DNA of 54,036 bases, from assembly GCA_903839855.1 (NCBI GenBank), contig CAIMEB010000250.1, positions 1-54,036 on the forward strand. The letters are read 5' to 3'. The notes below the pieces were generated by a model that had not been told where the DNA came from, ran no database searches, and saw only the letters and a list, made by a program, of their open reading frames with translations. A program made the translations under genes and the position numbers. This stretch comes from an uncultured Methylococcaceae bacterium (GTDB lineage: Bacteria; Pseudomonadota; Gammaproteobacteria; Methylococcales; Methylomonadaceae). Shown here one piece after another: positions 15,173 through 23,169 of this stretch (the stretch's first letter is position 1; every line of letters begins with the position of its first letter).

Positions 15173-15216
15173 CAAAAAAGCCCAGTAAAAGCCTTTTGAT
15201 GTGCTTTTACTGGGCT
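15173..15216 (-). terminator. Strong rho-independent terminator after the MtrB-like gene
   Basis: A perfect 14-bp stem AGCCCAGTAAAAGC/GCTTTTACTGGGCT (15179-15192 with 15203-15216) is followed in the minus direction by TTTTTTG. It lies 17 bases after the stop of the outer-membrane barrel gene. It ends the small cytochrome/decahaem/barrel operon. Confidence 0.9.
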
Positions 15217-15232
15217 GGGTGTACCTTATCTA

Positions 15233-17647
15233 TTAAAAGCTATGGTTGTAAGTTAAGCCAATTACACTGACGGCATAGTTTTGCATTTGTAAGTTGGTTG
15301 GCATTAAAGCGCTGGGTGTATAACCAGTCTGTTGACCATTGTAATAATAGTCATTGCTGTTTAACTTTTGATACATATAAGTTAAAGACAATTTACCATT
15401 TTTGTAGAGCTGATAATTGCTGGTTAACTTTAAACTCCACATCTCATTCTTAATGGGTGACAACGCGCCACAAGATAGTGTATTTGTTGCACCACAGGTG
15501 GCACCTGAAGGGATACCAGCTGAATTTGTTAAGGTATAAGGCACTTGAGTAGAATAACTCGTAGTATCTATGGTATACGATAAATCACCAATAAACTCTA
15601 ACTTATTGTTAAATAGCCCGCCATGACGACCCATTATGCCCACAGTTTGGCTATTATCGTCGAGTTGGTTAGTCCAAATATCTCTGGGGAAGTTCGTTTG
15701 ATTTCCCAATAATGGATTATATGTGGCACTACTGGTTTGATTAATGCCACTTCTTAGGTTTCTTTGGCCGTTTTGCCAGTTCCAATAGGCAGATACATTA
15801 CTCTTTTCGGTAAAATTGTAGGTGGTATCTACGTTAACACCTGTCGATTTGCCATTTTGAACACCTAACGAGACATCGTAATTATCGTAGGTATAACGAC
15901 CATTGACACCTACATCTAATTTTTGGGTGACTTGCCAATTAACGCCCGCTTTACCTATATTCTGGTTGCGGTTAGCGTAGGGATAAGCGATGTAGCCGAG
16001 ATAGTTTCCGGCATTAAGCGCTGAGCTAGAGACCGCAGTGGTTGATGCGTAGTTTCCTGCATTCGCCAAGAAACTTGGGTCGTTATCAGCCCGACGGTTA
16101 GCATAGGTATAACCTGCATTAAAGTTGACGTTATCAAGTGCTTTTAACCGGTAGGCCAAATTCATCTTATCTTCATTACTGGCTGGGCTCGAAACACATT
16201 GCGCTCCACCGACTACACCATTACACCAACGCTTAATACTTTCGTGTTCATAACCAAAATTTACATTTTGAGCATTGGTGATGCGATAAGCGGCTGTTGC
16301 TTCATATTGCATCTTACGGTTGCTGTAGGGTGTGTTGATTCCAGTATAATAAGAAGCGCTTCCTGGAGTTTGAGCGATATTGTAATATTTATAGGTATTC
16401 GAGTCGGTGTTGTTATCACGTTCGTTGATTTTATAACCAGCGGTCAAGGTAAGATCTTTGATGCTTTGGTTGGTGAGTTTAATATCCCCATGTTTGGTTT
16501 CTACCACACCGTTCAGCGACGAAGTGCTTAGGCCATTGGCCGCCATCATATTATAGGCACCCCCACTGACACTGGCTTGAGGAATTAAGGTCGGTGCAAA
16601 GCTGGAGTTCTGCTGGTTATAACCATAAGAAAAACCACCGGCTATTTTGGTGTCATAGCCGAAGTTATAGCCACCCGTCAGATTCGCCTGATGCAAGCTG
16701 TTGCTGGGTGCAGTGCTCATAGTGTTATTGGAATAGCAGTTAACACCAATACACCTGCTCGCACCAGATGCCATTGGGCTTTGCCAGCTTAAGCTATTAT
16801 AGTCATCATGAAAAATTGATCCGTAATATCCACCTGTTAAATGTCCTTTGTCGCCTTTCCAATTCAAGGCAGCATTGACGTTATCCGTTTGATAGCTAGT
16901 GGGATTTAAAATGATCATGTTGCCCTCAGCTCTACCCGTAGAGCCTCCAATCAAACCGATACCACCTTGCGAACCCGTACCAATGAGCTTGGCTCCCGAT
17001 TGATCTAAATGTTTATAATCAATCTGAGCACTAAATTGTGGGTTAAAGGTATAAGTCGTGCTAAACGAACCCGTTTTGCGATTGACTGATTCGTTTACAC
17101 CCTGAAAGTCAGAAGATTGAGTCGGTGTTAAGCTTCTCGTTCCACCATTAGGTGACGCCGTATTGATTGAACCAAAGTTTGATGGCAAGGTGAAATTATT
17201 ATCACCTGGATTGCCTTGCAAGGGTGTTTGGTAGCTATTAGTGATGTTGTGTTGCAATTCATCATAGCCAAGATTGATTTTCCATTTACCTTGATCGCTG
17301 GCAGAGCCATCGAGCTCTCTAGACGTTGTTCCAAGGTTAGAGCCGCCTAACTTCCAGCGAAGTCCGCTACCGCTATTTTGATCGTAGCCGTTACCGCCCC
17401 GGATATCAAAGCCTCCTAAGCCATAGGCACCCTGGCTATTCAAGCCATTATATTGACCAAATCTGGCAGACGATTGATCAGCATACAACGCCCCGAAATT
17501 AACCGTATTTGAGGGTTTTGTCAGCTCATCAGTCGAATCATCGGCGATTGCATAAGCCCCAAAAGGGAGTGTGGTAGTTGCCAATAATGCGCAGCGTATA
17601 GCTAACGCCATGATACTGACTTTCATTTCTTCTTTACGAATTTTCAT
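15233..17647 (-). CDS. MtrB/PioB-family decahaem-associated outer-membrane beta-barrel
   Basis: This 804-residue protein has a signal peptide (hydrophobic run ending FGAYA near 33), then long alternating aromatic/Asn/Gly-rich strands typical of a large barrel, ending in Phe (TYNHSF), the usual outer-membrane assembly signal. SGLRWKLGGSNLGTTSREL and KINLGYDELQHNI near the N-terminus match the MtrB/PioB/DmsF family. Such barrels sheath a decahaem cytochrome and let electrons cross the outer membrane. No CxxC is seen in the N-terminal region, where Shewanella MtrB has one; cysteines occur only in three later pairs. GGAGA precedes the ATG by five bases. It starts 18 bases after the decahaem gene, so the two are one operon. 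Confidence 0.85.
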   Translation of the reverse strand: MKIRKEEMKVSIMALAIRCALLATTTLPFGAYAIADDSTDELTKPSNTVNFGALYADQSSARFGQYNGLNSQGAYGLGGFDIRGGNGYDQNSGSGLRWKLGGSNLGTTSRELDGSASDQGKWKINLGYDELQHNITNSYQTPLQGNPGDNNFTLPSNFGSINTASPNGGTRSLTPTQSSDFQGVNESVNRKTGSFSTTYTFNPQFSAQIDYKHLDQSGAKLIGTGSQGGIGLIGGSTGRAEGNMIILNPTSYQTDNVNAALNWKGDKGHLTGGYYGSIFHDDYNSLSWQSPMASGASRCIGVNCYSNNTMSTAPSNSLHQANLTGGYNFGYDTKIAGGFSYGYNQQNSSFAPTLIPQASVSGGAYNMMAANGLSTSSLNGVVETKHGDIKLTNQSIKDLTLTAGYKINERDNNTDSNTYKYYNIAQTPGSASYYTGINTPYSNRKMQYEATAAYRITNAQNVNFGYEHESIKRWCNGVVGGAQCVSSPASNEDKMNLAYRLKALDNVNFNAGYTYANRRADNDPSFLANAGNYASTTAVSSSALNAGNYLGYIAYPYANRNQNIGKAGVNWQVTQKLDVGVNGRYTYDNYDVSLGVQNGKSTGVNVDTTYNFTEKSNVSAYWNWQNGQRNLRSGINQTSSATYNPLLGNQTNFPRDIWTNQLDDNSQTVGIMGRHGGLFNNKLEFIGDLSYTIDTTSYSTQVPYTLTNSAGIPSGATCGATNTLSCGALSPIKNEMWSLKLTSNYQLYKNGKLSLTYMYQKLNSNDYYYNGQQTGYTPSALMPTNLQMQNYAVSVIGLTYNHSF

Positions 17648-17665
17648 GACTGTCTCCGATGTGGG

Positions 17666-18616
17666 TTAGCGTTGCAATAGGGCGCCAGCTGGATCATTTG
17701 ATCCATGCACCATACTGTGGCAATTCATACAGGCACGACCTGTATAGCTGCTGCTTGGATTAGCGCCAGTATATCCACCCTGTGTCCCCGCAGCATTTTC
17801 AGCAACTGGACTTTTACTCGCATGTGGACCATCGTGACATTCATCACACAAGAACGGTGGACGTGATTTTAATAAAGGAGTCACGTTAGAGCCATGGGGT
17901 GTGTGGCAGTTAGTACAATCTTCAGTCACTGGCTGATGTTCCCATAAGAGGGGGCCGCGTTTTTCTGCATGACATGTATAGCAAGTTTCGGTCACGGTAC
18001 TTTTTACAAGTAATTTTGGACCTGCAGAGCCGTGTGGATTATGGCAATCTGAACAGGCAATTTTGCCTTCAGGAATCGGATGATGTGAAAACTTGTTTGC
18101 CTGGTTCTTTTGGTCCTTATGGCAAGTAAAGCATACATCTTTTTGGGTTATTTTTTCGCGTACTTTATCATGTGCATTATGAACAACATGGCATGAAGTA
18201 CAAGCTAAATCGGCTGCCTGGTGAGCTCCCCCTTGCCAATGCGTGCGGGTTGGGTCTTTTTCGTGACAAGATAAACAGGCTGTGTTTTGCTCTTTAGCTT
18301 GATTGGGTGAAAAAGCTCCTGTTGTTTTTGCACCAAAAATGACGTCCGGTGCGGAACTTTTACTGCTTAGGTGTTTCTCACTTTGACCATGACAAGATTG
18401 GCATGAGGGTGTCCGAGAATCCGCCTTGTTGCCGTGCGCGGTTTGATAAATAGATAGAATGGGTTTGGCTTCATTCTCATCATGGCAAGTGGTACACACT
18501 GAATCTCTGTCCAATGCTTGAGCAGGTGATTTAGCAGTAGTCGTCGTGGTATTTTCAGCATAGGCAGATCCAACGAGGAGCCCGCACAGCATGATTATTT
18601 TAATTAATGTGTTCAT
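17666..18616 (-). CDS. MtrA/DmsE-family periplasmic decahaem cytochrome c
   Basis: This 316-residue protein has a signal peptide (1-20, ending GSAYA) and exactly ten CxxCH motifs, starting at residues 41, 72, 114, 139, 162, 188, 212, 234, 257 and 296. Length, haem count and the repeated CxxCHxxHG pattern match MtrA, DmsE and PioA. These proteins sit inside the partner barrel as a haem wire through the outer membrane. Many extra His residues can supply the distal ligands. The adjacent barrel gene strongly supports the pairing. No outer-surface cytochrome (MtrC/OmcA) and no DMSO-reductase subunits are nearby, so the terminal partner is unknown. Confidence 0.93.
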   Translation of the reverse strand: MNTLIKIIMLCGLLVGSAYAENTTTTTAKSPAQALDRDSVCTTCHDENEAKPILSIYQTAHGNKADSRTPSCQSCHGQSEKHLSSKSSAPDVIFGAKTTGAFSPNQAKEQNTACLSCHEKDPTRTHWQGGAHQAADLACTSCHVVHNAHDKVREKITQKDVCFTCHKDQKNQANKFSHHPIPEGKIACSDCHNPHGSAGPKLLVKSTVTETCYTCHAEKRGPLLWEHQPVTEDCTNCHTPHGSNVTPLLKSRPPFLCDECHDGPHASKSPVAENAAGTQGGYTGANPSSSYTGRACMNCHSMVHGSNDPAGALLQR

Positions 18617-18734
18617 TAGTATTAAAGTTCCTGCAAGGTTTAAGAGCTACATCGTTTTCACGCAGCTAATCTTTGTATGTGGTGAAATGAAAATCTGGAT
18701 CCCCAGTGTCATTCAGTCACCACAACTGGGTCAG

Positions 18735-19085
18735 TTATTTTAAAGAAAGTATGAAATCAACTAGATTGCTAGCGGCTTTAGGATCTTCTGCCTTCAAGAT
18801 TGTGTGTGCTTCTTCATGCCCATCAGCAAATTTGACGTTTTTTCCAGAAGCAAGATGTTGCAAGAGTTTTTCTTGTGCTTTAGCGTCGCCTTTATATTTT
18901 GCCGATACTTTGTTCCAAGCTGGGCCATCTTTGTCTTTATCAGTGCCATGGCATCTAAAACAACCGTTTTCTTTAGCTAAAGCTTTAGCTGCATCGACAT
19001 CAACTTCAGCGTGTGCAGAAAAACAAAAAGCAGCAACAGTTATAGCGAAACAGGCTTTAAGGCTCGATTTACGTGAGAGTTTCAT
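18735..19085 (-). CDS. Small monohaem class I-like cytochrome c lacking methionine
   Basis: From the ATG at 19085 this is 116 residues: signal peptide to about residue 26 (ends FSAHA), one haem site CFRCH at 42-46, the GPAWNKVSAKYKG segment of cytochrome c551/c552-like proteins, and a C-terminal helix ending FILSLK. After the initiator there is no Met anywhere in the protein, so the usual Met distal ligand is absent. H90 and H94 in the DGHEEAH stretch that replaces the Met loop are the best candidates, with H77 also possible. It is probably a soluble periplasmic carrier. It is the first gene of the run leading to the decahaem cytochrome (118-base gap). A longer frame from a TTG at 19097 has no support. 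Confidence 0.85.
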   Translation of the reverse strand: MKLSRKSSLKACFAITVAAFCFSAHAEVDVDAAKALAKENGCFRCHGTDKDKDGPAWNKVSAKYKGDAKAQEKLLQHLASGKNVKFADGHEEAHTILKAEDPKAASNLVDFILSLK

Positions 19086-19226
19086 GGAAAATACCAAAAG
19101 TAATGTGAAAAATTAGAAATGTTACAAATATCAAGTGTAATTTAAGAATAGTTTATAACCATCAAGCTTGTCAAATGAAATTATTGTGATATGTTGAGGC
19201 GTTTTGAATGTTATTCGGGATAAATC

Positions 19227-22739: not shown

Positions 22740-23066
22740 CTACCAGCCTTCACCTGATTTTTTCAATATATAAGCCGCTACATTTTCAATATCGGGAGCC
22801 GATATAACGCCTAGTTTACCAAAAGCTGGCATGGGGCCTTTGCCATTGGTGATTAGCTCAATAATAGCCGCTGCTGAATTTACTTTATTGGTTTCTAAAT
22901 CCTCTTTGCTTAAAGATTTGCCGGGTGCCATGATATTTTTACCACCCGCATGACACGCTGTGCAATTTGAAAAGAATATGTCCTTCCCTAGCTCTGCATT
23001 TGCTGCTATAGCAGAACTGGCAAAGCCGCTAATGGTTAAGGCGATTACTGAGATAATAGTTTTCAT
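22740..23066 (-). CDS. Cytochrome c6/c553-like monohaem protein
   Basis: From the ATG at 23066 this is 108 residues: signal peptide to about 22 (ends SSAIAA), haem site CTACH at 35-39, the N-I-M-A-P-G-K-S-L motif, and the distal ligand Met79 in GPMPAFG. It ends in an EGW tail. These features are those of photosynthetic cytochrome c6 and its bacterial c553 relatives, small soluble periplasmic electron carriers. A longer frame from 23153 adds a Pro/Lys-rich stretch before the signal peptide and is unlikely. It stands alone, facing away from the broken yigZ. Its donor and acceptor are unknown; a terminal oxidase is plausible. Confidence 0.85.
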   Translation of the reverse strand: MKTIISVIALTISGFASSAIAANAELGKDIFFSNCTACHAGGKNIMAPGKSLSKEDLETNKVNSAAAIIELITNGKGPMPAFGKLGVISAPDIENVAAYILKKSGEGW

Positions 23067-23169
23067 TTGTTTTTCTGTTGGTTGATTATGGGGTTTGTAT
23101 GTGACAGGTAACGGTTTAAAAAGTTTCTTCACTAATACAGGATTGGTCATCATTGGTCATCGATATCCA

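Follow-up and report, generated by a model that had tools for sequence, protein, structure and literature searches.

What is a conduit for passing electrons through the outer membrane doing in a methane-oxidizing bacterium, what stands at its inner end, and which way do the electrons run? These questions are raised by a minus-strand locus coding for three cytochromes and a barrel in a 54,036-nucleotide stretch of DNA from an uncultured Methylococcaceae bacterium ("the window": positions 1 to 54,036 of contig CAIMEB010000250.1, assembly GCA_903839855.1). The answer favored here, with a probability only a little better than even (roughly 0.55), is that the locus specifies a conduit of the Mto type through which methane-derived electrons are exported when oxygen is short.

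The outer pair is readily identified. The decahaem cytochrome scores 287.9 bits with TIGR03508 (cut-off 192.2) and the barrel 445 bits with TIGR03509 (cut-off 240.05) and 415.6 bits with the Pfam family MtrB_PioB: both curated cut-offs are passed and the pair is a member of the MtrAB/MtoAB/PioAB porin-cytochrome family. Among solved structures, the two proteins come closest to chains A and B of 6r2q, the Mtr complex. The single-chain predicted model of the barrel (mean predicted local distance difference test score (pLDDT) 65.1) has 6r2q_B as its top Foldseek match (E 2.7e-33), far above the next barrel (3.4e-9); the N-terminal CxxC of Shewanella MtrB was found neither in this barrel nor in 24 relatives aligned with it. 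All four reading frames of the locus are unbroken, MtrA keeps 10 of 10 haem sites, and haem-motif DNA is over-represented in the window (18 matches, versus a mean of 3.97 and a maximum of 8 in 100 shuffles).

The small cytochrome supplies the connection to Mto. Its top phmmer match in the PDB is 4xxl, with the next distinct sequence only at E 1.7e-15 (Table 1). This is MtoD of Sideroxydans lithotrophicus, in which haem is ligated by His47 and His95, an arrangement that is unusual among class I cytochromes (PMC4412085). The window's protein may start at an ATG at 19085 (116 amino acids) or at an in-frame TTG at 19097 (120 amino acids); in a gap-free alignment up to that residue, MtoD His95 falls on H98 of the longer form. 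The distal His is kept in 21/21 rows of class I loci, 9/9 of class II (both defined below) and 30/34 other aligned rows. Judged by its sequence, the small cytochrome is MtoD-like, of a kind found in iron-oxidizing bacteria, with the bis-His ligation site predicted to be present.

Transcription proceeds from the small cytochrome gene through mtrA and mtrB to a terminator, and beyond it lies TM4, the gene of an inner-membrane monohaem cytochrome; the intergenic distances are 118, 18 and 273 base pairs (bp), respectively. (A technical note: a simple terminator scanner misses this terminator, which is detected by its folding energy and z score; a promoter scan found 17 candidates versus 13.0 expected from shuffles and was not used.) Since the terminator separating mtrB from TM4 is strong, TM4 need not be co-transcribed with the genes that precede it. 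An original prediction, made from the letters of the window, had placed an MtrA-type decahaem cytochrome, an MtrB/PioB-type barrel without CxxC and a small cytochrome c in one minus-strand run ending at a strong terminator. All of this is borne out, and modelling the barrel, which it had proposed, yields an MtrB-type fold; what it overlooked is the MtoD family of the small cytochrome and the fourth gene.

Table 1. The conduit locus of the window and the paralog of its inner-membrane cytochrome
Feature	Position	Strand	Evidence
mtoD-like periplasmic monohaem cytochrome c	18735..19085	-	phmmer 4xxl E 1.8e-34; distal His kept
mtrA/mtoA-like decahaem cytochrome, 316 aa	17666..18616	-	TIGR03508; 10 CxxCH; 6r2q_A E 6.5e-69
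mtrB/mtoB-like outer-membrane barrel, 804 aa	15233..17647	-	TIGR03509; Foldseek 6r2q_B; no CxxC
Intrinsic terminator 3' of mtrB	15173..15216	-	stem + T run, -24.8 kcal/mol, z -5.2
TM4 inner-membrane monohaem cytochrome, 241 aa, four helices	14234..14959	-	one CxxCH; AlphaFold2 pLDDT 86.3
TM4b, TM4 paralog with 49% identity	52363..53277	-	sequence comparison

How general is this arrangement? Gene order around mtrA was viewed in 80 loci (L, G and C numbers designate loci, genomes and contigs), eight of them without an MtrA label (L062, L067, L071, L073, L078, L081, L098 and L099, all outside classes I and II). Thirty-two are counted as methanotroph loci: 23 of class I, the closest to the window (MtrA identity from 100 down to 73%; L031-L052, L056), and nine of class II (L069, L072, L086 and L092 included). 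TM4 lies downstream of mtrB in 29 of the 32 (only its first part in L031, and with two frames intervening in L033) and the remaining three (L036, L045, L056) stop at contig ends. MtoD is likewise found in 29; it is missing from L036 and from L043 and L048, which begin at contig edges. A protein of 170-240 residues with three to five haems occurs in none of the 32 loci. Directly after mtrB in 12 of the 40 other loci displayed, some of the rest being cut short, there is instead a tetrahaem protein of 190-229 residues (L055, L058, L059, L063, L064, L065, L070, L074, L075, L094, L101, L103). TM4, in other words, occupies the position often held elsewhere by a tetrahaem gene whose product, to judge from position, size and haem count, is probably ImoA/CymA. 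TM4-like genes (38-39% identity) appear in three further loci (L087, L088, L099).

TM4 itself resists classification. Its haem domain, with the single CxxCH, lies between membrane helices 1 and 2, and C114, C117, H118, H153 and H155 are invariant across 32 aligned sequences. At E<=0.01 neither Pfam nor NCBIfam offers a match to it. With its AlphaFold2 model (predicted template modelling score 0.65) as query, Foldseek returned 141 PDB matches at E<=10 and none at E<=0.001; VIA-align returned helical bundles with Z up to 8.6, which that tool's own notes class as uninformative, so that a fold family is neither claimed nor excluded. TM4 homologs are widespread, being present in 189 of the 201 genomes of the family. 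The close kind (at least 74% identity) is confined to 24 of the 201, the remainder being 46-66% identical among the matches listed, and 22 of these 24 genomes carry an MtrA of class I (16) or class II (6). As for the other two, in G034 an MtrB-like piece (39 amino acids, E 3e-4) precedes TM4 near a contig end; in G186 TM4 has a transposase-like frame upstream and a contig end a short way beyond it. Because most of the 189 genomes with TM4 homologs have no class I or II conduit, the window's second copy, TM4b, is probably not part of the conduit. TM4b has a C-terminal extension, and neither copy in the window exceeds any Pfam or NCBIfam cut-off. Tandem TM4 copies (62-65% and 83-90% identity) lie downstream of mtrB in two close relatives of the window's locus, at L032:9632-11344 and L033:11452-12969. 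A third, weak match in the host genome (contig C105, 32% over 82 residues) was discarded: its frame has no CxxCH.

The host genome (3.40 Mb in 294 contigs, 99.98% complete) contains a gene matching PF02461, subunit A of particulate methane monooxygenase or ammonia monooxygenase, at 433.3 bits, and the loci nearest to the window's come from Methylococcaceae, Methylococcales, Methylobacter and Crenothrix. The host is therefore a Methylococcales methanotroph; the original prediction had called it a probable methylotroph, and had also noted that no gene of the MtrC/OmcA type and no CymA are in view. Genome-wide searches agree on both counts: the OmcA/MtrC model TIGR03507 finds nothing at E<=0.001, in a search in which no control genome reached the cut-off and which a divergent surface cytochrome might escape, and the NapC/NirT profile (E. 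coli control above cut-off) has only two matches in the genome, both inside mtrA. Tetrahaem ImoA/CymA of the NapC/NirT family, a constituent of the Mto pathway, was accordingly not found by this profile. The notion of a conduit without an outer-surface cytochrome in a bacterium living on one-carbon compounds thus stands; for the inner-membrane partner there is a candidate, TM4. One more small cytochrome c, of the Cytochrome_CBB3 family, is encoded in the window at 22740-23153 (minus strand), unlinked to the conduit locus.

The two classes of methanotroph conduit share some components and not others. In the MtrA tree, class I (24 rows, the window's included) and class II (nine rows) are separate clades, each with a Shimodaira-Hasegawa-like approximate likelihood ratio support of 99: class I adjoins a Hydrogenophilales row and a Methylobacillus-titled group; class II groups with Gallionellaceae, Sulfuricella, Comamonadaceae and Acidobacteriota rows. 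Forcing the two into one clade is rejected by the approximately unbiased test for MtrA (33 versus 48 rows, p 1.1e-5) and for MtrB (31 versus 43 rows, p 7e-72, LG+G4), is not rejected for MtoD (30 versus 34 rows, p 0.449) and is borderline for TM4 (p 0.054), with the extra TM4 copies of L032 and L033 falling among classes I and II. Since the classes were named after the MtrA identities had been seen, these single-clade p values are descriptive. As drawn, the trees of MtoD and of TM4 show certain class II rows interspersed with class I, but keeping class I separate is likewise not rejected (MtoD p 0.526, TM4 p 0.423), and the MtoD tree, with 126 columns, open forks and long branches, is weak. 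Identities between the nine class II loci and the window are 52-58% for MtrA, 31-34% for MtrB, 46-69% for MtoD and 69-79% for TM4. Most simply, these results can be read as replacement or separate gain of the outer pair, with MtoD and TM4 shared. Other MtrAB kinds occur in the same methanotroph family: L117-L121 (five genomes, MtrA 44-49% identical) have a tetrahaem gene upstream, and L145-L150 (six genomes) have an MtrA of 37-40% identity.

Another gene travels with the class I conduit: that of a UbiE-like methyltransferase, METHYLTRANSFERASE. A search downstream of TM4, confined to frames of 230-300 residues among the next three, finds it in 11 of the 23 class I loci, separated from TM4 by 33-710 bp; several of the other loci are incomplete. 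The one copy that was scanned, from L035, scores 108.9 bits with Pfam Ubie_methyltran, above cut-off, and 139.7 with TIGR01934, below the cut-off of 158.35. The window's own locus has no such gene, and an 88% identical copy lies elsewhere in the host genome (C258:8765-9520, the same as L154:5760-6542), followed by a Polyketide_cyc-family gene; a second match there, on C226 (27%), resembles canonical UbiE. At E<=1e-60 the methyltransferase is present in 15 of the 201 family genomes, that is, in 14 of the 16 with class I MtrA (G012 and G180 lack it) and in one of the 185 without class I MtrA above cut-off. That one is G186, in which the methyltransferase adjoins TM4. It is near TM4 on one contig in nine of the 14 class I genomes and on a separate contig in five (G000, which is the window's own genome, G007, G118, G160, G178), the G118 copy having an internal stop. 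Co-occurrence with class I is strong overall (Fisher p 1.4e-18) and within the window's genus, where seven of eight class I genomes and none of 13 others have the gene (p 6.9e-5), but both p values ignore kinship between genomes.

Outside the family, relatives of this methyltransferase (53-63% identity, E<=1e-40) occur at 17 places in 15 of 368 other genomes of the class, some of them in redox company: L188 has a protein with eight haems as well as an MtrA/MtrB pair; L190 has a flavoprotein carrying fumarate reductase/succinate dehydrogenase domains; and L182, L185 and L192 have a protein with three haems next to two similarly sized frames, whose L182 versions match NrfD and 4Fe-4S families, a gene set that we take to be DsrJOP-like. 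None of these redox gene types was recognised in the remaining 12 of the 17 neighbourhoods. A protein family of about 212 residues adjoins the methyltransferase in eight of the 17 (L178, L179, L181, L183, L184, L186, L187, L190); its L190 member, the one scanned, has no Pfam match.

Class II has something different in the same place. In L080, L082, L093 and L097 another methyltransferase lies 3' of TM4; the only one of the four that was scanned, from L082, has RquA as its best match (NF038261, 119.5 bits, below the cut-off of 175). RquA as a general partner in the family was considered and rejected: no genome of the 201 has it at E<=1e-15, in a search in which no control genome reached the cut-off. 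The host genome has four UbiA-superfamily genes, one of them MenA-like (109.7 bits against a cut-off of 277), and no menaquinone gene was recognised among the neighbours of the latter. That one and the same inner-membrane cytochrome should have two unlike methyltransferases of quinone type for neighbours suggests a special quinone. A tentative proposal, judged less likely than not, can be built on this: the UbiE-like methyltransferase, gained together with the class I conduit and retained with it also where the two are unlinked, would make or tune a special, perhaps low-potential, quinone for TM4, so that extracellular electron flow would run on a pool partly apart from ubiquinone; an RquA-like enzyme would fill the same slot in the second set of methanotrophs; and MtrAB would be the exchangeable part, with MtoD, TM4 and a quinone enzyme forming an inner module.

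How might such a conduit work? The ten-haem cytochrome (MtoA, in Mto terms) would thread the MtoB barrel, exposing its outer haems directly, with no need of a surface cytochrome; MtoD would be a soluble carrier in the periplasm; and TM4 would exchange electrons with quinol in the inner membrane, substituting for tetrahaem ImoA/CymA. Running outward, electrons would pass from quinol, oxidized by TM4, to MtoD or another periplasmic cytochrome, then through MtoA/MtoB to Fe(III), humics or an electrode, and their export would spare scarce O2 for methane monooxygenase. The original prediction left the direction of flow open, and rightly so. The outward direction is supported by a Methylobacter that has the four-gene locus and was enriched on an anoxic anode, where current was lost without methane and restored on its re-addition (PMC13322032). 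In Shewanella, MtoD of Sideroxydans lithotrophicus strain ES-1 was able to accept electrons from CymA and donate them to MtrA (PMC13390432). Oxidation of quinol, and with it export, would also be in keeping with a dedicated quinone.

A number of observations weigh against export by this route: 1) The anode study concerns a mixed community and includes no test of any gene, and a second enriched Methylobacter lacked the locus (PMC13322032). 2) Neither MtoA nor ImoA interacted in vitro with S. lithotrophicus MtoD (+155 mV) (PMC13390432), and MtoD may therefore not be the link. 3) Neither Foldseek nor VIA-align found a fold match of TM4 that would back quinone chemistry. 4) TM4, sitting beyond a strong terminator, may be transcribed apart from mtrAB. 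5) In G061 (L136) and G018 (L144), with MtrA at 50-52%, MtoD-MtrA-MtrB has neither TM4 nor a tetrahaem gene adjoining. 6) Inward operation has been proposed for Mto homologs. 7) In the class I relative L036 a protein with the Cyc2 motif, a mark of iron oxidases, adjoins mtrA.

The last two points lead to the foremost alternative, an unlikely one on present evidence: that Fe(II), reduced humics or a mineral supplies electrons, which pass inward by way of MtoD to a terminal oxidase or the quinone pool, perhaps priming methane monooxygenase. MtoD comes from an iron-oxidiser family and keeps its bis-His site; the ES-1 protein is considered to deliver electrons to a high-potential acceptor, and in Sideroxydans MtoD has been proposed as an oxidase donor (PMC13390432). 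The methanotroph MtrA clades lie among mainly betaproteobacterial loci, Gallionellaceae included. The L036 protein (L036:4387-5844; 417 residues from the motif onward) is a cytochrome-porin, by the motif of PMC8406198, and occupies the position of MtoD; an incomplete homolog 72% identical to it lies beside a TM4-like gene at L032:12185-12952. However, the window yielded no Cyc2 motif, and neither did 9.4 kb of contig C105, the rest of the genome not having been scanned for it; a quinone-reducing gene of the NapC/ImoA type was not found in the genome; and the methane-dependent anode current, with enrichment of a Methylobacter bearing the same locus, speaks against uptake (PMC13322032).

That the kinds of evidence conflict, anode current pointing one way and Mto kinship the other, is what commends a reversible conduit, its direction set by the redox state outside and serving export and uptake alike; such a conduit would look like its one-way counterparts in sequence, and it must be rated a good deal less probable. 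That these are transferred passenger genes without an important role in their host is highly improbable: the spread is patchy (MtrA above cut-off in 35 of the 201 family genomes) and the MtrAB pairs are of separate origin, but the four frames are intact with every MtrA haem site in place, gene order is kept across genera, and an unlinked methyltransferase is co-retained. Methane-driven export through an Mto-type conduit is what remains favored.

How much of this is new? MtrAB/MtoAB/PioAB homologs were reported in metagenome-assembled genomes of Methylobacter in 2019 (PMC6344600) and listed again in 2025 (PMC12810054, PMC12662621), and a paper of June 2026 described the four-gene locus together with its synteny and its patchy distribution across Methylococcales (PMC13322032): the core finding was therefore already known. 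The main text of that paper contains no occurrence of MtoA, MtoD, methyltransferase, Cyc2 or NapC. A literature search joining MtoD with methanotrophs gave, by title, nothing about MtoD in methanotrophs, and among the titles listed by another, on UbiE, MtrB, multiheme, methanotroph and Methylobacter, none ties a methyltransferase to the locus. Added here are the identity of MtoD, TM4 in the place of ImoA, two MtrAB pairs of separate origin with similar MtoD and TM4, and the methyltransferase link. Whether aerobic methanotrophs are able to export or import electrons across the outer membrane matters for methane removal where lakes and sediments are low in oxygen. The analysis links the locus to the Mto family, with an inner-membrane end that differs from the iron-oxidiser version. 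The methyltransferase link is the part most worth testing: a dedicated quinone, if true, would distinguish class I strains from sisters without the conduit.

Among known systems, the likeness is closest to the Methylococcales locus just mentioned (Methylobacter_1 tags 02045-02048, PMC13322032): it too comprises a periplasmic monohaem cytochrome, an MtrA decahaem, an MtrB/PioB porin and a four-helix inner-membrane monohaem protein, is described as having no MtrC/OmcA, belongs to a methanotroph, and is read there as operating outward; the likeness is one of description and gene order, not of compared protein sequences. Shewanella MtrCAB shares the MtrA and MtrB families, and the barrel model matches its 6r2q_B, but MtrC/OmcA and CymA have no match in the window's genome and the barrel lacks CxxC. 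PioABC of Rhodopseudomonas palustris is, as here, an MtrA/MtrB-family pair without a surface cytochrome (PMC10654088, PMC6344600), normally the case for Mto and Pio systems (PMC6344600); its PioC is a high-potential iron-sulfur protein, in contrast to the window's small carrier, a cytochrome c of the MtoD kind. With Mto of S. lithotrophicus ES-1 (mtoD, mtoA, mtoB, imoA) the window shares the first three gene kinds, the bis-His site and the want of a surface cytochrome; it differs in having monohaem TM4 where ES-1 has a gene of the NapC/ImoA type, and in its methanotroph host. With mtoD upstream, the locus stands nearer to Mto than to either Mtr or Pio.

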